From the NCBI RefSeq assembly GCF_038002345.1, contig NZ_JBBOCJ010000001.1, forward strand, positions 5,766,001 through 5,830,000: DNA of 64,000 nt, written 5' to 3'. The DNA is from Paenibacillus sp. FSL M7-0420. Its GTDB lineage: Bacteria > Bacillota > Bacilli > Paenibacillales > Paenibacillaceae. The notes below the pieces were generated by a model. The model saw only the letters and a program-made list of their open reading frames with translations, did not search any database and was not told the DNA's origin. The position numbers were made by a program, and so were the translations under genes. Shown here piece by piece: positions 2,380 through 33,900 of this stretch. Position 1 is the stretch's first letter. Every line of letters begins with the position of its first letter.

Positions 2380-2632
2380 AATCCATATTCAATCGATGAC
2401 CGGGAGAGTAATGGTCTTATATCTAGTCCCCAGCGAGCCGGGAAAGTGGAAGCCGGTACAGATTAGAACCATGAAGCGCACCCGTGAGATGGACTTCTGA
2501 ACCTTGTAGTAGGAAGCCCCGGCCGAGGACCGTTAACCTGTAAGGTGGCTGAACCGTAAGGCTCAGCAACGAGAGTGGTACCGCGAGCGCACAAGCCTCG
2601 TCTCTTAGGAGATGAAGGCTTTTTTTGTCGTT
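2380..2632 (+). promoter_or_regulatory. T-box riboswitch leader (tRNA-Arg sensing) of argS
   Basis: The leader contains the conserved T-box sequence around GAGAGTGGTACCGCGAGCGC (2571-2590), which pairs with the uncharged tRNA 3' end in the antiterminator. A Rho-independent terminator follows (AAGCCTCGTCTC ... GAGATGAAGGCTTTTTTT, 2593-2627). Stem I elements occur at 2396-2460. In the specifier region the pattern GAAG-CGC-ACC places CGC (2477-2479) where the specifier codon is expected. CGC is an arginine codon, which agrees with the downstream gene being arginyl-tRNA synthetase. Low charging of tRNA-Arg should cause antitermination and raise argS expression. Confidence 0.88.
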
Positions 2633-2656
2633 ATTTTATTCAGGAGGTTGTTATTC

Positions 2657-4768
2657 ATGCCAATGCTAAGTGAGCTAATCCAAGAGAGCTTGAAACAGTC
2701 TGTTCACAAAATCGTGCTAACCCTGGGCGTGCCCGCCATCGCTGAAGTAAATGTTGCCCTGGAGCAGCCGGCGAGTGCCGACCACGGGGATTATTCAAGC
2801 AATATCGCCATGCAGCTGGCCCGCCCCTTGCGCAAAGCTCCACTGGCTATCGCCGGACTGATCGTCGCCGAGCTCGAAGCTTCGGGCTCTGTTCACGGAC
2901 TGGTGCTGAGAACCGAGGTTGCCGGTCCGGGGTTCATTAATATGTATCTGGATTGGCAGGCCTGGGCACGGGCGAAGGGGAATTTCACGCTGCCTCAGCA
3001 TGCAGGAGGGTCGAAGGTGATTGTCGAGCATACGTCCGTCAATCCCAATAAAAGTATGCATATCGGTCACCTGAGAAACTCCTGTATCGGGGACGCGCTG
3101 GTGAGGGTACTGCGGGCAACCGGCCATACCGTTGAGGTACACAACTATGTGGATGATCTCGGCAATCAGCTGGCAGATACCGTAGCCGGTCTGCTGAATG
3201 TTCCGCTGGCGGGAGAACATGTCCGGTTCGGGGATTACTGCTGGGACATCTATGCCGAGATCAACAAAACGTACGCGCAGCAGCCGGAGATGGTGCAGAA
3301 GCGGACCGGGATTCTTCACGCGCTGGAAGAGGGCCATGGCAACACCGCCTGGATTGGCACCCTCGTCGCCGGTCAGATCGTGAAAGAGCATGTGGAGGAG
3401 ATGCGGGGCTTCGGCATTGACTACGATCTGCTGGTGTGGGAGAGCAGCATTCTGAAGGAGGGCTTCTGGGCCTCGGCATTCGAGCTTTTGTCGCAGACGG
3501 AGATCTTCGTGCAGGAGACGGAAGGCAAGCTGGCAGGCTGCTGGATTCTGAAGCAACCCGCTGAAGACGCTACACCAGACACCCTGGAGGAGCATCAGAA
3601 GGATAAGGTGCTGGTGCGCTCGAACGGAATTCTGACCTATACTGCCAAGGACATCGCCTATCATCTGTGGAAGTTCGGACTGCTGGAGAAGGATTTCAGC
3701 TACAGCGAATTTCAGAGCGGACTGTGGACGACCGGCTTGAGCGGACAGGCTCTGCCTTTTGGACGGGCGGACCAGGTTGTGAACGTCATCGATTACCGGC
3801 AGGAATATCCGCAGCAGATGGTCAAGCAGGCGCTTAAGGCACTGGGATTCGGTGCGCAGGCAGACGCGCTGCATCATGTCAGCTATGGGGTGGTCTCGCT
3901 GAGTCCCGCTTCTGCGGCCGGGCTGGGCATTGATACCTCCAGCGGCAAAAGCTCCTACGCCATGTCCGGGCGCCAGGGAATCGGCATTAAGGTAACCGAG
4001 CTGGTCCGGCTCATGGAAGACATGATTGAATCCACCCGTTCGGACAAAAACGGCCTGTCCAGCCGCCTCATCGCCACCGCTGCCATCCGTTACTACCTGC
4101 TGCGCTTCAATCTGGGCACCGAGATTGTGTTCGACTTCAAGCAGGCAATGGAAATCTCCGGCAACACCGGCGTCTACCTGATGTACGCCTACGCCCGGGC
4201 GCAGCGCGTGCTTAGTAAGGCCGCTGCGGCGGGTGGCGGGAGCGGCGTTGGCAAGTCCGGCGTTAGCGAGTTCGGCGCTAGCGAGTTCGGCGCTGGCAAG
4301 TCCGGCGTTGGCGAGTCTGGCGTTGGCGAGTCCGGCGCTGGCGAGTTCGGCGCTAGCGACTCTGGCGTTGGCGAGTCCGGCGTTGGCGAGTTCGGCGCTA
4401 GCGACTCTGGCGTTGGCGAGTCCGGCGTTGGCGAGTTCGGCGCTAGCGAGTCTGGCGTTGGCGAGTCCGGCGTTGGCGGGGTGCCGCTATTCCCGGCGCA
4501 TCTCGAAGCGGCTGAGCTTGCCCTGTTGAGACAGCTCAGCTTATGGCAGGACACACTCTATACAGCAAGCCGGGAGCTTACGCCGAATACGATTTGTAAC
4601 TATGCCTATTCCCTGGCCTCGTTGTTCAGTAACTTCTACTCGGCTTGCCCGATTCTCAAGGGCGGGGAAGTCAGTATTGCCTTCCGCCTGTGGCTGACCC
4701 AGAGCTTCACCGATACACTGGGCGAAGCGCTCGACGTACTCGGTCTGCCTAAGCCGGAGCGGATGTAG
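2657..4768 (+). CDS. argS: Arginyl-tRNA synthetase with a 75-residue tandem-repeat insertion
   Basis: ArgRS attaches arginine to tRNA-Arg. Domains in order: the N-terminal tRNA D-loop domain (about 1-95), the class I Rossmann core with HIGHLRNS at residues 135-142, the KMSK-equivalent AMSGRQG near 435, and the C-terminal anticodon-binding helical domain ending at residue 703. I chose the ATG at 2657 because AGGAGGTTGTTATTC precedes it; the upstream ATG at 2612 lies inside the T-box terminator. The usual length is about 550-590 residues. The excess comes partly from residues 530-604, fifteen exact five-residue units of the type G-V/A-G/S-E/K/D-S/F. They lie between the helix YAYARAQRVLSKA and the helix starting near LEAAELALLRQL of the anticodon-binding domain. 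The insert stays in frame because each DNA unit is 15 bp. The enzyme is probably active, with the insert as a flexible loop. Confidence 0.93.
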   Translation: MPMLSELIQESLKQSVHKIVLTLGVPAIAEVNVALEQPASADHGDYSSNIAMQLARPLRKAPLAIAGLIVAELEASGSVHGLVLRTEVAGPGFINMYLDWQAWARAKGNFTLPQHAGGSKVIVEHTSVNPNKSMHIGHLRNSCIGDALVRVLRATGHTVEVHNYVDDLGNQLADTVAGLLNVPLAGEHVRFGDYCWDIYAEINKTYAQQPEMVQKRTGILHALEEGHGNTAWIGTLVAGQIVKEHVEEMRGFGIDYDLLVWESSILKEGFWASAFELLSQTEIFVQETEGKLAGCWILKQPAEDATPDTLEEHQKDKVLVRSNGILTYTAKDIAYHLWKFGLLEKDFSYSEFQSGLWTTGLSGQALPFGRADQVVNVIDYRQEYPQQMVKQALKALGFGAQADALHHVSYGVVSLSPASAAGLGIDTSSGKSSYAMSGRQGIGIKVTELVRLMEDMIESTRSDKNGLSSRLIATAAIRYYLLRFNLGTEIVFDFKQAMEISGNTGVYLMYAYARAQRVLSKAAAAGGGSGVGKSGVSEFGASEFGAGKSGVGESGVGESGAGEFGASDSGVGESGVGEFGASDSGVGESGVGEFGASESGVGESGVGGVPLFPAHLEAAELALLRQLSLWQDTLYTASRELTPNTICNYAYSLASLFSNFYSACPILKGGEVSIAFRLWLTQSFTDTLGEALDVLGLPKPERM
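4244..4468 (+). repeat. 15-bp tandem repeat (15 units) inside argS
   Basis: Fifteen consecutive 15-bp units such as GGCGTTGGCGAGTCC and GGCGCTAGCGAGTTC run without interruption. They also form a higher-order 45-bp unit (GASDS-GVGES-GVGEF) seen two to three times. Slipped-strand or unequal recombination would change the number of units without a frameshift. Confidence 0.95.
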
Positions 4769-4910: not shown

Positions 4911-5290
4911 AGGTGCACTAATGCACCTCATTTTCACATTTCGCCCGCTTCCGGTAAATTCAAGTGCACTTTTACACCACATTTTCTCATTTTGGCCGCT
5001 TCTGCTAAATTCAGGTGTACTTATGCACCTCATTTGCTCATTTAGCTCTATTCTGCTAAATTCAGGTGCACTTGTGCTCCTCATTTGTTCATCTCGCTTA
5101 CTTCTGGTAAATTCAGGTGTACTTATACACTACATTTGCTCATTTTGCTCACATCTGGTGAATTCAGGTGTACTTATGCACCTCATTTGCTCATTTGGGC
5201 CGCTTCTGTTAAATTCAGATGTACTTATACACCTCATTCGCTCATTTGGGCCGCATTCAGTAAATTTAGAGTCAATTGGTCCTTTCTAAA
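4911..5290. repeat. Tandem 51-bp repeat array with hairpin cores (7 copies plus a decayed 8th)
   Basis: The word AGGTG/AAGTG/AGATG starts at 4911, 4962, 5013, 5064, 5115, 5166 and 5217, an exact 51-bp step; a degenerate copy is at 5268. Each unit holds an inverted repeat such as AGGTGCActaaTGCACCT, then CATTTGCTCATTT, a spacer, and TTCTGGTAAATTC. In several copies the arms change together (GCA/TGC to GTA/TAC), which suggests a selected hairpin. The array lies between argS and tRNA-Arg. Because 51 is divisible by three, long open frames cross it, but none has a ribosome binding site. Confidence 0.9.
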
Positions 5291-25248: not shown

Positions 25249-25560
25249 TGGAGCACTTGTGCTCTTCATTCACGCTCCCCGCCCGTTTTCGGCGAATTCA
25301 GGGGCATTTGTGCTCCTCATTTACGCTCCCCGCCCGCTTTCGCCGAATTCAGGGGCACTTGTGCTCTTCATTCAGACTGCTCAAAGGGATTAATCCCTTT
25401 CATTTCTACACAGCTGCCATTTCTAGCTAAATCAATGGGATTTATACCTTTCATTTCTACACATCCGCCACTTTCAGCCAAATTAATGGGATTTATCCCT
25501 TTCATTTCGCACCATCCACCACTTCTAGCCGAATCAATGGGACTTATCCCTTTGAATATC
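25249..25560. repeat. Two adjoining 51-bp repeat arrays with different hairpin cores
   Basis: Three copies with the core AGGGGCACTTGTGCTCTT step by 51 bp (25249, 25300, 25351). Then four copies with the core GGGATTAATCCC or GGGATTTATCCC step by 51 bp (GGG at 25386, 25437, 25488, 25539). The two sets share TTTC/TTCATT flanks and the AAATTCAGG or AATTAATGG link. Open frames cross the arrays because the period is 17 codons, but they lack start signals. Confidence 0.9.
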
Positions 25561-25740
25561 ACACATCACCCGCCTGCAGCCGGGCTAGAGGTAGTGTTGA
25601 TTACAAGCTGCAGTTTCACCAACGATTTAGCCATTTTTTTCAGGCATTCCAGTAGTCGAGGTTTCCCAGAATAGTGTGAGGGTAGCAACAGGCTAATGAG
25701 CGGTTTTCGGTCAGCGGGTTGTGTGCAGTGGGGCATTACA

Positions 25741-25970
25741 GCGTGTTATGGGGGCTACCTGTCGTGAGCTGTGTGGGCGTGTTATGGGGAGCTACCTGTC
25801 GTGAGCTGTGTGGGCGTGTTATGGGGAGCTACCTGTCGTGAGCTGTGTGGGCGTGTTATGGGCTACGTGTCGTGAGCTGTGAGGGCGTGTTATGGGCTAC
25901 GTGTCGTGAGTTGCATGTTATGAGCCACGTGTGATGAGCTATGTACGATGAGCTACTACATGTCATGAGC
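25741..25970. repeat. GT-rich minisatellite of about 37 bp
   Basis: GCGTGTTATGGG ... GTCGTGAGCTGTGTGG recurs at 25741, 25777, 25814, 25851 and 25885 (steps 36, 37, 37, 34). It then decays into shorter fragments (TTATGAGCCACGTGTGATGA) up to about 25970. It has no spacers of unique sequence and no coding frame with a start signal. Confidence 0.88.
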
Positions 25971-26042: not shown

Positions 26043-27077
26043 CTACTCCACAGCCGTGAAAAGCAGGTCGCCGCCTGGCCCGGCCTCCGTCTCGGCCGCC
26101 CGCCCCCGGCGCACCAGCTCGGCCAGATGGGCCAGCGCCTCGCTCATGGCGAACCGCATCTGGTGCGCTGTCGCGACCCGGCTGCGGAACAGCCCCTCGC
26201 AGACCGCGAACCCGCTCTGCGGTCCGCCCGCGAGCAGCGCGGCTGTAGCATCCAGCCGCTCCTCATGATGCCGGAGCAGGCTGTCCGCCCGCGCCGTGAA
26301 CCCCGGGAACGGTTCCCGGTGGCCCGGGAACGCCAGCGTTACCCGCAGGCTGCGCAGCTCCCGCAGCCCCTCCAAGAACGTCAGCAGCGGCTGCGGATCG
26401 CTGCCTGGCTGCAGGCCGACATTGGGCGAGATCTGCGGCAGCACAGCATCGCCGCAGAGGATCTGCCCGCTGCCGCCGTGGTAGAACGACACATGCCCCG
26501 GCGCATGCCCGCCTGTGATAATGGGCTGCCATTTCCGGCTGCCCATCACAAACGGCTCCGCGGCATGGATATAGGTGACCTCCGGCTGCGGGGTCACCTC
26601 GGGCAGGAAGCTATCCAGATGCTCCCGGATACCCAGAAGCCACTCCTCCGGCATGCCATGCCGCCGGAAAAAGAGCGGCAGCGCCTCATTCAGAATCGCC
26701 TCGTCCCCCCAGGCCAGGGCAGCCTCGGCATGCGCCCGCTCGCTCATCCACACCCGCGCTCCGCTGCGGGACTGCATCCAGCCTGCCAGCCCGTAATGGT
26801 CGGGATGATGATGGGTCACCACGATATCCCGCACCTGCGCCCAGGTAAGGCTCAGCGCCTCGAGTACCCCCTGCCAAGCAAGCTCGGCAGCCGGTGTATG
26901 CGGGCCCGGATCAATGACCGTAACCCTGCCGTCCTTGTCCGGCAGAAGATAGCTGTTAACCTGGCGCAGCGGCAGCCCCATTGGTACAGATACCTGAAGA
27001 ACTCCTTCGTCCCAAGCTTGAATGATCTCCTTGTTCAACCTTCCTTCGCCTCCTCTAAGCCCTCTCCCTGATGCCAT
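26043..27077 (-). CDS. MBL-fold metallo-hydrolase
   Basis: This is a metallo-beta-lactamase-fold hydrolase with the zinc motif THHHPDHYG (HxHxDH), VIDPGPHTP before it, GGHAPGHVSFYHGGSGQILCG (late His and Asp ligands) and AFPGHREPF. A winged-helix-like tail (SRVATAHQMRFAMSEALAHL) resembles LACTB2-type proteins. Substrates of this subgroup are unknown. The frame starts at ATG 27077, 2 bp after the methyltransferase stop; a TTG at 27038 has a better site (GAGGAGGCGAAGGAAGG) and would give MNKEIIQAWDEG. Composition is GC-rich compared with the repeats next to it. Confidence 0.9.
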   Translation of the reverse strand: MASGRGLRGGEGRLNKEIIQAWDEGVLQVSVPMGLPLRQVNSYLLPDKDGRVTVIDPGPHTPAAELAWQGVLEALSLTWAQVRDIVVTHHHPDHYGLAGWMQSRSGARVWMSERAHAEAALAWGDEAILNEALPLFFRRHGMPEEWLLGIREHLDSFLPEVTPQPEVTYIHAAEPFVMGSRKWQPIITGGHAPGHVSFYHGGSGQILCGDAVLPQISPNVGLQPGSDPQPLLTFLEGLRELRSLRVTLAFPGHREPFPGFTARADSLLRHHEERLDATAALLAGGPQSGFAVCEGLFRSRVATAHQMRFAMSEALAHLAELVRRGRAAETEAGPGGDLLFTAVE

Positions 27078-30186: not shown

Positions 30187-31413
30187 CTAAGCCAGCTGCT
30201 TAATGACAATCGAAGCATTGACATTGGCTTGTGTTCCTCCAGCCAGCGTCTGCAGAGTGACTGCGGCAGCCGAGCTGTGATTCCGAAGCGTCAGCACATC
30301 GCCTGACGATAATGCGATGATCGCCTGCCCGGTGTTCTGCTGGGTGCCTGCGCCCGATCCGTAGACCGTTCCCGGAACCTCCGCCCCATTCACGAATAAG
30401 GCAAACTGGCTGGGTTCCGTACCGGATACCGAGAAATTAACCTCATAGATTCCGTCATTGGCTACCGAAATTGTAGTTGTCCCTGGGGCATGTGTAATTC
30501 CCGGGGTAAGCAGCCCATTCGTATCAAAAGACACATCTGCCTCAATCGGCACTACCAGCGCGCCGAGGTTATAGACGTATCCGAACTGGGCAATTCCACC
30601 GGCTGCCCCTGTGGCACCCGTCGCTCCCGTTGCCCCGGCTGGACCGGCAACTCCTGTTGCACCCGTTGCTCCAGCGGGCCCCGCTACTCCCGTAGCACCT
30701 GTGGCCCCCGCTGCTCCTGCCGTTCCCGCTGGCCCCGCCGGGCCGGTGGCTCCTGCCGTTCCCGCTGGCCCCGCCGGGCCGATGGCTCCCGCCGCTCCCG
30801 CTGGCCCCGCCGGGCCGGTGGCTCCTGCCGCTCCAGCTGGCCCCGCCGGGCCGATGGCTCCTGCCGCTCCAGCTGGCCCCGCCGGGCCCGCCGGACCGAT
30901 CCCGCCCAGCGCTCCGGCCGCGCCTAATGCTCCGGCCGTTCCCGCAGCGCCGAGCGCACCTTGGGTACCGGCTGCGCCCAGCCCCCCGACTACTCCCGCT
31001 GCGCCCAACAGCCCGGCTGCTCCCGCTGCTCCACGGGCACCTGCGGCACCGGCTGCACCTGCGGCGCCAAGTGCTCCGGCCGCGCCAATTGCCCCCAGTG
31101 CCCCTGCGGTTCCCTGTTCGCCCAGCGCTCCGGCTGCTCCCGCTGCACCGAGCGCACCTGCTGCACCTGCGGCTCCCGCCGCTCCCAGCGCTTCAACAGC
31201 GCCTGCCGCGCTTAAGGCTCCTGCCGCACCCGCGGCCCCCAGCGCACCTAATGGAATATTGACGCGGACAATTTGCTGTTTGACGATAATTTTCTTGCAG
31301 CCGCATTTGTTGTCCTTCCGTTTTGTCGCGGGACGTTTCGCTCTTGGCAGAGGGCATCCGGCAAACTCCTCTGTGCAGCTCCGCTTTTTCTTCTTACGTT
31401 CCGTACGACCCAT
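30187..31413 (-). CDS. Collagen-like (BclA-type) surface or spore protein
   Basis: The 408-residue protein has a basic head (MGRTERKKKKRSC, later CGCKKIIVKQQIVRVNIPLG) and a Gly-X-Y region of about 215 residues in two blocks. The first is alanine/leucine-rich (GALGAAGAAG) and nearly free of proline; the second is proline-rich (GPAGPAGPAGAAGAIGPAG). Early in the first block two glycines are replaced (SAA, EAL). The C-terminal domain of about 135 residues (FGYVYNLGALVVPIEADVSF ... GIYEVNFSVSGTEPSQFALF) matches the BclA/C1q-like trimerising domain of exosporium glycoproteins. AGGAGGTGTCAAAT precedes ATG 31413; a GTG at 31422 lies inside that site. It probably forms trimeric filaments on spores. 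Confidence 0.9.
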   Translation of the reverse strand: MGRTERKKKKRSCTEEFAGCPLPRAKRPATKRKDNKCGCKKIIVKQQIVRVNIPLGALGAAGAAGALSAAGAVEALGAAGAAGAAGALGAAGAAGALGEQGTAGALGAIGAAGALGAAGAAGAAGARGAAGAAGLLGAAGVVGGLGAAGTQGALGAAGTAGALGAAGALGGIGPAGPAGPAGAAGAIGPAGPAGAAGATGPAGPAGAAGAIGPAGPAGTAGATGPAGPAGTAGAAGATGATGVAGPAGATGATGVAGPAGATGATGATGAAGGIAQFGYVYNLGALVVPIEADVSFDTNGLLTPGITHAPGTTTISVANDGIYEVNFSVSGTEPSQFALFVNGAEVPGTVYGSGAGTQQNTGQAIIALSSGDVLTLRNHSSAAAVTLQTLAGGTQANVNASIVIKQLA

Positions 31414-32045
31414 ATTTGACACCTCCTATAGACTTTATGTATCCTACTCCGTTTACCCAGAGGGGGCATGGACATTCATCCCGTAGGCAAATATTTATTT
31501 TATGGAAAAGTGGTTAATTGTACAGGATGGACAAGCTCAATTCACCCCGTCAGGCCGAAATTTGTTCTCATACCCGCTCACCACCCGTCCACCAAAAACA
31601 TATACTATTGCCGGACAAACCGCCTTCATTGCCCCGGTGATCACACTTGATTGCATCCTCGCTCAGACTCTCTGCATCAGCAGGCCAAATAAGCCTACTG
31701 ATGCAGTACATACATCCGATTTCAGTGCAGAGTCAAACTTCAGTTGCAGAGTCATCAAATCAGCTATCCGTTGGATTCTGCTGTACAGAATGCAATAGAA
31801 CAGGCTCCGAACGCAAAATAACCCCACAAAGCGGGAGCCAATCACCTTTAAATGCTCAGGTAAATGCTCAGGTGCTTTCGGGGGATGCAAATCATACAAA
31901 TCCTTGTCTTTTCAGAACAAGATAAGCCAAACGGTTGAATCTTGCTGTAGGTTATGGCACCGTTATGGTGATTATGTAGCTATTACGGCCACTCTTCATC
32001 GCTGTATTATGACGATTCTGGAGTAGCATCCGGCGAAATCAGGTG
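31414..32045. repeat. Intergenic region with a degenerate repeat block
   Basis: No gene is convincing. The segment 31690-31800, read on the minus strand, has TTCTATTGCATTCTGTACAG and two CTCTGCAACTGAAG/CTCTGCACTGAAA words. These resemble the 856-960 repeat block. The end of the segment (GGCGAAATCAGGTG) is the start of a 51-bp repeat unit that the insertion sequence interrupts. Confidence 0.5.
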
Positions 32046-32053
32046 CACTAATG
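32046..32053. repeat. Target-site duplication, left copy (CACTAATG)
   Basis: CACTAATG here is repeated exactly at 33697-33704 on the other side of the IS. Confidence 0.9.
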
Positions 32054-32088
32054 CCAATGTCATTAAGTTAAGATATAGAGCCAAAAAC

Positions 32089-32136
32089 AAGAAAAAGGCA
32101 GGTTATCGAAAAGATAGCCTGCTCTTTTTTTGCACA
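32089..32136 (+). terminator. Terminator-like hairpin near the IS left end
   Basis: GGCAGGTTATC-gaaaa-GATAGCCTGC is followed by TCTTTTTTT. It would block transcription entering the IS from outside and so keep transposase expression low. Confidence 0.8.
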
Positions 32137-32203
32137 AAAAAATCTTGACAATCCGTAGAAAACGTGTGGCGAAGCCCCTTGAAAAAACGAGGAGGTTACG
32201 CCA

Positions 32204-33526
32204 ATGAATGCTTATGCAAATTCGCTGAAAGACAGACTGACATCTCTCATCCGTGAGATGGCGGCTGCCCCCGCGCCTTACGTCAGAAACCCGGGAAAGG
32301 ATTTTACCCGAACGAAAAAACTACCCTTTGAAATGGTTATGCAAACCCTGATCTTTATGGGCGGCAACAGCCTCTATAAGGAACTGTTGGAATCGCAGGG
32401 CTATGACGTTAACACCGCAACTTCTTCTGCTTTTGTTCAGCAAAGAAATAAAATTTTGCCGTCTGCGGTCGAATCTTTGTTTCACACCTTTACCGCGTCC
32501 CATACGGAATTCAAGGATTATCGAGGCTATCGATTATTGGCCATTGACGGTTCCGATCTGCATATTGCAACAGATCCTGCGGACCCGTTGACCTATTCTC
32601 AAAGTCAGCCCCACTCGAAAGGCTTTAACCTTCTGCACTTGAACGCTGCTTATGACCTCTGTAACCGGCTTTACGTGGACGCCATCCTTCAACCTCGAAA
32701 GCTACGCAACGAAGGAAGGGCGCTGTCCACGATGGTGGATCGGTCCCCTATTCAGGGGAACGTCATTGTGTTGGCGGATCGAGGATTGGAAAGCTACAAT
32801 ACGTTCGCGCATCTGGAACGGAAAGGATGGAAGTACGTCATACGGGTCAAGGATTTGCATTCGAATGGCATTCTTTCGGGCTTGCACTTGACCTTTGAAG
32901 GGGCGTTTGATCAGGAGATTCACCTGACGCTGACTAAAAAACGAACGAAAGCGTTCAGGGATCACCCCGAAATCTATAAAATTCTTCCGGCCACCTCTAG
33001 CTTTGATTTTCTGGACATGCAAAAGAACCTGTTTTACCCGATTTCCTTTCGGGTGGTTCGTTTCCTCCTGCCCAGTGGCGATTATGAAACCGTCATTACC
33101 AATCTACCGGCTGCTGAATTCTCACCGGATGAACTCCGGGAACTGTATCACCTGCGATGGGGGATTGAGACCTCTTTCCGGGCCTTAAAATACACCATCG
33201 GTCTGACCCATTTTCACGCAAAGAAGCAAGAGTCCATTACCCAAGAGATATTCGCAAGAATGATCCTCTACAATTTCGCTGAAATGATTACCTCGCACGT
33301 AGTCATTTCCCAAAAGGATAAACGGCACCTCTACCAAGTCAACTTCACGGTGGCCGTTCACGTCTGTAGACATTTCCTGCGCTCCAAGGGCGATGGACCC
33401 CCGCCTGATGTGGAAGCTTTGATTCGCAAAAATATGTTGCCGATTCGTCTCACCCGTCCTGGGCAAAGGAATACACGCAGAATACGTAGCAAATCCGCCA
33501 TTAGCTTCGTCTACAGAGTAGCATAA
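32204..33526 (+). CDS. IS4-family transposase (DDE)
   Basis: The product has 440 residues and is intact. The IS4 signature YREK is present in YHLRWGIETSFRALKYTIGL (Y-2-R-3-E-6-K), which carries the catalytic Glu. The first Asp is in LLAIDGSDLH and the second in VIVLADRGLESYNT. CGAGGAGGTTACGCCA precedes the ATG, a strong site. The C-terminus ends in a basic stretch (RPGQRNTRRIRSKSAISFVY). The undamaged frame and perfect duplication suggest recent movement. Confidence 0.95.
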   Translation: MNAYANSLKDRLTSLIREMAAAPAPYVRNPGKDFTRTKKLPFEMVMQTLIFMGGNSLYKELLESQGYDVNTATSSAFVQQRNKILPSAVESLFHTFTASHTEFKDYRGYRLLAIDGSDLHIATDPADPLTYSQSQPHSKGFNLLHLNAAYDLCNRLYVDAILQPRKLRNEGRALSTMVDRSPIQGNVIVLADRGLESYNTFAHLERKGWKYVIRVKDLHSNGILSGLHLTFEGAFDQEIHLTLTKKRTKAFRDHPEIYKILPATSSFDFLDMQKNLFYPISFRVVRFLLPSGDYETVITNLPAAEFSPDELRELYHLRWGIETSFRALKYTIGLTHFHAKKQESITQEIFARMILYNFAEMITSHVVISQKDKRHLYQVNFTVAVHVCRHFLRSKGDGPPPDVEALIRKNMLPIRLTRPGQRNTRRIRSKSAISFVYRVA

Positions 33527-33696
33527 TTCGGTTCGCATGAACATTTTTTTAAGTGGATCTTCCATCCGCTTTGTTTGCTATGCGCTTTTTTCCTTCCTTA
33601 CACCAAAAACAAACGGCATAGGACGTTTCCCCATACCGTTTTGGATTCTCTTTATTAATTCCAAACTTATCTTTGAACTTATCTTAATGACATTGG

Positions 33697-33704
33697 CACT
33701 AATG
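33697..33704. repeat. Target-site duplication, right copy (CACTAATG)
   Basis: It matches 32046-32053 exactly and directly follows the right inverted repeat. Confidence 0.9.
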
Positions 33705-33900
33705 CTCCTCATTCCCGCCTGCCGCCCACTTTCTACCGATTCAGGTGTACTTATGCTCCTCATTCCCGCCTGCCGCCCACTTTCTACCGATTCAGGTGTA
33801 CTTATGCTCCTGATATCCTCCTTTAGCCTGCATCCAGTAGTGTCAGAGCGATTTATCCCTTTTATTTCCCCTTCCAGCACACTCTGGCGGGATCGAGGGA
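33705..33900. repeat. 51-bp repeat array interrupted by the IS (right part)
   Basis: AGGTGTACTTATGCTCCT starts at 33743 and 33794, 51 bp apart. The segment 33705-33742 (38 bp) completes the unit whose first 13 bp lie left of the IS at 32041. Past 33810 the sequence drifts into the GATTTATCCCTTTTATTT type seen at 25386-25560. Confidence 0.88.

Follow-up and report, generated by a model that had tools for sequence, protein, structure and literature searches.

Hairpin arrays of the window

The window, a 64,000-nt stretch of the genome of a Paenibacillus strain near P. silagei, contains intergenic arrays of a 51-bp unit. In the family that we call F1, this unit combines an 18-nt hairpin (7-4-7) with a 33-nt linker and comes in two types, A (AGGTGCA-CTTA-TGCACCT) and C (AATGGGA-TTTA-TCCCTTT). 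An earlier note had reported seven copies starting exactly every 51 bp from 4911 to 5217, and this is confirmed. Seven type-A units (AGGTGYA-CTTA-TRCACCT plus linker) occupy 4911-5267 on the + strand, with starts at 4911, 4962, 5013, 5064, 5115, 5166 and 5217, and 5268-5290 is decayed sequence. A second type-A block (25249-25374, +) has two full units and a third hairpin, with starts at 25249, 25300 and 25351. It is followed by a type-C block of four units, the last decayed (25383-25586, +; starts at 25383, 25434, 25485 and 25536). The last array spans 33692-33895 (starts at 33692, 33743, 33794 and 33845). The first hairpin of this array is cut by an insertion sequence; its left part lies at 32040-32053 (+), and the remainder at 33697-33895 (+) consists of A units and then a C-like unit at 33845. 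The insertion sequence itself (32054-33696, +) carries a 440-aa DDE_Tnp_1 transposase (32204-33526) and is flanked by two copies of the 8-bp target duplication CACTAATG, at 32046-32053 and 33697-33704.

The four arrays share a common 51-bp register, in which their 17 units align without gaps over 51 columns. Of the further sites to which the note had assigned this period, 25249-25351 and 33743/33794 are in register, but its start at 25386 has to be moved to 25383. In a scan of periods from 20 to 119, the strongest was 51 (507 scan windows), followed by 102 (279). The pair at 856/907, also named in the note, does consist of two modules 51 bp apart, but it belongs to a different, partly inverted element. 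This hairpin-like E-type element (856-1045, no strand assigned) continues into opposite-facing modules; in its clearest copy (L225) two modules stand 51 bp apart one way and two more 51 bp apart the other way, and relatives occur elsewhere in the genome on both strands. We discarded it as an orientation control, the element itself being partly inverted.

Two simple ideas about the arrays were rejected. A coding origin might be suggested by 51 being a multiple of three and by spurious open reading frames that span the arrays, but units of 50 and 52 bp shift the frame. A constant order of A and then C blocks is no rule: among 50 array segments of this genome, A precedes C in 22, A stands alone in 20 and C alone in 5, the two alternate in 2, and C precedes A in 1, as it does in an array of P. 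tritici. Other repeats in the window include a 37-bp tandem repeat of other sequence near an F1 array (25741-25910, 4.8 copies) and an open reading frame with 9/18/27/36-bp repeats, by eye collagen-like (30187-31422). A gene resembling those for arginyl-tRNA synthetase, encoding 718 aa and with 15/45-bp repeats inside it, is preceded by a T-box leader (2387-4768).

Period, families and covariation

The earlier note had set a genome-wide excess of 51-bp spacing as a test of its claim, and such an excess is present in the part sampled. A census of 1.256 Mb, in stretches picked at round coordinates, found 76 tandem arrays with a period of at least 20, of which 43 lie outside long open reading frames. 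Period 51/52 accounts for 20 of these 43, a count that leaves out two more 51-bp arrays inside long open reading frames; 8 are CRISPR-like, and apart from the latter every other period was seen at most twice. Our arrays resemble CRISPR in being regular, noncoding and tandem, but in them the whole 51-bp unit repeats, linkers included, and there are no unique spacers. CRISPR-like arrays with the repeat GTCGCACTCTATATGAGTGCGTGGATTGAAAT or close variants lie at 1.03-1.07 Mb of the genome (L311-L313).

By eye, the 20 census arrays of period 51/52 sort into F1 and a new family, F3, with the hairpin AATGTAATCGG-TTTT-CCGATTACATT. A covariance model of F1 gave 194 matches in the genome, 150 of them listed, from 150 scored of 2471 candidates; the listed matches together with BLAST (E about 1e-4 or less) define at least 47 F1 array loci. 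Neighbouring listed F1 units (109 pairs) are spaced by 51 bp in 84 cases, by 102 in 9, by 52 in 4 and by 50 in 1. These spacings suggest that arrays grow by duplication of whole units, which would hold the period inside an array. The note had proposed a copying mechanism or a protein that measures 51 bp. A 51-bp ruler is unproven, and spacings of 50 and 52 bp exist.

Period-51 arrays also occur in several congeners. The F1 model has matches in at least 20 of 60 genomes, our own included, four of them with one weak match. A family with the leading-sense hairpin AACGGCA-GAAA-TGCCGTT, F2, from Paenibacillus sp. S150, was found in 4 of 16 congeners among the matches listed, and F3 in 4 of 13. In random samples, 51-bp arrays are present in genomes G026 and G006, and samples of 120-140 kb each from G010, G012, G014 and G031 contained none, so it is not a trait of the genus as a whole.

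One position allows the families to be compared across species. Downstream of homologues of the metallo-beta-lactamase-fold gene at 26043-27077, F1 arrays occur in P. silagei, P. tritici and P. piscarius. In the same place, judged from the gene side of the array, F2 hairpins stand 51 bp apart in Paenibacillus sp. S150 and P. helianthi, and hairpins of a further family, F5 (GAGGCA-AAAA-TGCCTC), do so in P. albidus. With the same weight matrix, the window has 5 units 3' of this gene and P. silagei has 8. A search for perfect stems at 25 such loci found no 51-bp series in most of them; it overlooks F1 arrays with mismatched stems, and the F1 arrays at this gene rest on other searches. Among tandem repeats outside long open reading frames at 80 named loci, period 51 was the commonest (11, next 24 with 5), although these loci are centred on this gene and are not an independent sample for period.

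Across the families the architecture is the same: a 51-bp unit, a stem of 7-11 bp, a 4-nt loop that is T-rich on one strand and a pyrimidine-rich linker. In F1 and F3 the hairpin is directly followed by CATT. The proposal that sequence is less conserved than period and hairpin is thus borne out by types A and C and F3 within the genome, and by F2 and F5 at the metallo-beta-lactamase-fold gene across species. When linkers were compared at all 51 shifts, the hairpin-centred alignment ranked first for F1A-F1C, F1A-F3, F1C-F3, F2-F5 and F3-F5, and did not for F1A-F2, F1A-F5, F1C-F2, F1C-F5 and F2-F3, with an F5 consensus drawn from four units. On sequence grounds, common descent is therefore plausible for some families, and unproven for the rest. 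An ancestral unit could explain part of the constancy of 51 bp, since F1-F3 and F2-F5 linkers align in this way; F1-A and F2 do not. The constancy of the period between families could be a matter of inheritance, of constraint or of measurement.

The BOX elements of Streptococcus pneumoniae are likewise modular hairpin repeats in intergenic DNA, with one module repeated in tandem. They are alike in layout but have other unit lengths and sequences, and we know of no replichore polarity for them.

The note had also claimed that the hairpin arms change together. Over the 17 window units, 86.6% of cells are paired, compared with 74.0 (sd 2.5) in shuffles, the covariation score is 0.414 against 0.195 (sd 0.038), and both sides have changed in 20 cells against 9.0; none of 500 shuffles was as high in any of these, although the repeat units are mutually related and such comparisons are not probabilities. 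Slid versions of the structure are 35-61% paired. Two other measures in the same units show no difference from shuffles: 4 double-change pairs against 3.5, and 9 further pair types against 8.7. With types pooled, the signal is strong: 277 distinct units of the genome have Watson-Crick pairs in 1545 of 1939 cases, compared with 1267 (sd 15) on average in shuffles. When the units are divided into types by an ad hoc criterion, type A gives a clear signal (962/1246 against 911.9, sd 8.9) and type C shows no covariation (583/693 against 581.6). The claim therefore stands for the window units, the pooled units and type A, but neither for type C nor for two of the window measures. In F3, 473 of 550 pairs are formed against 465.3 (sd 1.9), but the units were preselected for at least 9/11 pairs, so this excess says little. 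Folded as DNA, the type-A unit has z-scores of -4.6 and -3.7 on its two strands and the F2 unit -3.8 on both; F5 reaches about -2, and the type-C unit, at about -0.4, hardly folds.

Orientation relative to replication

The strongest signal, missing from the earlier note, is the orientation of the arrays relative to replication. In this genome dnaA lies at 7.281 Mb, and the sign of the GC skew switches between 3.74 and 3.80 Mb. Among the matches listed and those from BLAST, the F1 array strand points toward the origin at 47 of 47 loci, '-' on the right arm and '+' on the left; one reversed array with several units (6214519, '-') surfaced after this count. F3 has the same polarity at 37 of 40 array loci found by BLAST, provided that the terminus is placed at about 3.79 Mb; if it lies at 3.65 Mb, the locus at 3.786 Mb changes arm and the count is 36 of 40. 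Reversed F3 arrays with several units lie at 702794 ('+'), 892703 ('+') and 5669626 ('-'). Scanning 1.776 Mb with a weight matrix gave 55 clusters that keep the rule in 50 of 51 multi-unit and 3 of 4 single-unit cases, and no match in a reversed-sequence control. This sample is not independent, since much of the sequence had been retrieved on account of the arrays themselves. Within arrays, units face the same direction in 49 of 50 F1 cases, the remaining array having 14 one way and one the other.

By raw open reading frames, all four reversed arrays (three F3, one F1) lie between two leading-strand genes, and local skew is normal at the three that were tested. Their existence argues for a bias in origin or growth over an absolute ban, though it is compatible with selection too. 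At L360 (892382-892950, judged from open-reading-frame repeats alone) and L143 (6214416-6214859), reversed arrays appear directly beside normal ones.

The same polarity is found in other species. In G029, loci obey it in 38 of 38 cases for F2 and 11 of 12 for F1, and in G026 in 28 of 28 and 28 of 29, all among the matches listed, with F1 mostly represented by one or two matches per array. In both genomes dnaA is near base 1 and the terminus was set at the strand switch itself, at 3.59-3.74 of 7.2 Mb in G029 and at 4.03-4.25 of 7.9 Mb in G026. F3 loci obey the rule in G036 (5/5) and G007 (4/4), where the terminus was assumed opposite dnaA, and in G026 (4/5) and G032 (1/1). Reversed loci are F1 at 6590726 and F3 at 5313604 in G026, F1 at 1241192 in G029 and F2 at 654278 in G032. 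In G032, where 34 of 35 F2 loci among the matches listed conform, the F2 strand switches at 1.65-2.19 and 5.40-5.66 Mb, and polarity named the first of these as the origin. When dnaA was located afterwards, it lay at 1.871 Mb, inside the predicted interval; the array strand switch had bracketed the origin before dnaA was known. Orientation skewed relative to replication is familiar from KOPS, SRS and Chi, single short polar motifs with a known protein. The Paenibacillus repeats share the skew, but are long tandem hairpin arrays with no fixed sequence.

Polarity of this kind could follow from the direction of genes. With heuristic gene calls, and leaving out the four reversed arrays, 50 F1 arrays lie between convergent genes in 24 cases, between two genes opposite to the array in 22, between divergent genes in 3 (two of them arrays split by an insertion sequence) and along with both neighbours in 1; of 16 F3 arrays, 2 lie between convergent genes and the other 14 between two genes that run opposite to the array. 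Against a background of 464 intergenic regions 100 bp or longer, of which 266 are tandem-leading, 58 convergent, 93 divergent and 47 tandem-lagging, F1 is enriched between convergent genes, and arrays of either family hardly ever stand upstream of divergent genes. In 62 of the 66 cases (F1 46/50, F3 16/16), the 3' side of the array is where a leading-strand gene ends. This would be expected if the hairpins acted as RNA in the 3' region of leading-strand transcripts, polarity then being gene direction. We consider such RNA-level elements the least probable of the explanations weighed here. Between convergent genes a lagging-strand gene ends at the array too, yet all 26 arrays there (24 F1, 2 F3) keep the replichore orientation, so transcription is unlikely as a lone cause, and the polarity at these sites argues for replication over transcription. 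Of 46 gaps that separate gene and F1 array, 22 contain a terminator-like site (none was found in the other 24), against 111 of 920 shuffled gaps, and wobble pairs lack a clear strand bias (127 GT and 89 AC mismatches in units of this genome give no clear pointer to one strand). At gathering score, Rfam returned only a T-box and tRNA in window positions 1-40000, and no match at four other loci (L150, L163, L044, L005).

Polarity could also be maintained by selection. The arrays might be polar chromosome elements, either binding sites kept in phase by a spacing of about five helical turns or structures located where leading genes end, from which selection removes the wrong orientation. The strength of the polarity in our genome and five congeners agrees with this, as does the position 3' of leading genes, and helical phasing would suit a spacing of 51-52. 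Nevertheless, the sequence families differ, and a binder would have to tolerate changing arms; many congeners have no match among the matches listed, unit number differs between near relatives, and reversed multi-unit arrays exist. We hold a selected function to be rather unlikely.

Origin of the arrays

The strand with the T-rich loop corresponds in sequence to the lagging nascent strand, and its complement, with the purine-rich loop, is the lagging-strand template. The hairpins are near-symmetric, so folding alone explains no single orientation. Taking together the architecture, the polarity, the several families, the place 3' of leading-strand genes and the difference in copy number between near relatives, we give a probability of about 0.4 to the reading that the arrays form a superfamily of noncoding tandem hairpin repeats, fixed in architecture and polar relative to the fork, that arise from a replication-polar process acting on single strands. 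The hairpins would form where DNA is single-stranded at the fork, with the lagging-strand template as the most likely place. Some process that depends on replication would create or multiply units, mostly in one orientation; candidates are template switching, slippage from hairpin to hairpin, or a single-strand nuclease. No enzyme for array formation was identified in this analysis. Arrays may then enlarge by whole units and homogenise, such that sequence turns over and hairpin, spacing and polarity stay.

In a stronger and rather doubtful version, the fork itself makes the arrays: a step tied to about 51 nt of single-stranded template would duplicate hairpin-bearing segments and turn independent sequences into arrays of one orientation. 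If so, the arrays would be a readable record of fork direction in a genome. More broadly, period, hairpin and polarity that outlast sequence amount to a natural experiment on hairpins at the replication fork. Should the cause be mutational, the arrays reveal a replisome-linked duplication process; should it be selective, they represent a novel polar chromosome element.

A replication-polar process acting on single strands has an established counterpart in mobile elements. According to PMC6006769, IS200/IS605 and REP systems are documented to recognize hairpins and to target the lagging template, the processing of single strands on that template is an established route to orientation bias in IS200/IS605, and the definition of REP/RAYT includes a hairpin with a 5' GT[AG]G foot. 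PMC3116915 reports eleven tandem GI-GIII REP arrays in P. fluorescens SBW25, the five near 2 Mb being forward and the six near 4 Mb reverse; these oriented arrays on two arms are a precedent for ours. The Paenibacillus repeats could likewise be REP-like mobile hairpins that an HUH (Y1) enzyme moves in single-stranded form, with the lagging-strand template as its target and the orientation bias as the result. The bases AAATG, conserved 5' of the F1 hairpin on the lagging-template strand, would fit this, and REP, BIME and REPIN with tnpA-REP (RAYT) share with our arrays the many intergenic hairpin copies in several sequence families.

Other evidence makes mobilization by such an enzyme improbable. 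The GT[AG]G foot is absent from the consensus of F1A, F1C, F2, F3 and F5. The earlier note had suggested looking for a REP-type transposase, but the search of this genome (PF01797) gave one full match and one copy in two pieces, both IS605-type and both followed by an OrfB_IS605 gene, and no lone tnpA-REP gene flanked by repeats was found. Within the 13-14 kb examined around these Y1 genes there is no F1 unit; F3 arrays lie about 0.2 kb and about 2 kb from the IS605-type tnpA copies (L129, 3.404 Mb; L130, 6.789 Mb). At E 1e-5, F1 had no match in annotated plasmids and phages, nor F2 and F3 in plasmids. Isolated units are few, making up 4 of 55 clusters in a sample with many stretches retrieved on account of their arrays. 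Our arrays also differ from BIMEs, whose units alternate, in their direct 51-bp tandem order, and from REP/RAYT systems in a polarity that spans several sequence families and several species. Among the open PMC papers listed, no title or abstract opening describes 51-bp hairpin arrays in Paenibacillus.

Open reading frames equal in length to the 440-aa DDE_Tnp_1 transposase flank arrays at five loci of the genome, so the insertion sequence found at 32054-33696 seems to prefer F1 hairpins. Three type-C arrays (at 2706867, 4016075 and 6927049 of the genome) have ends that contain GGGACAGCCCC, as though a small mobile element had either brought them in or interrupted them.
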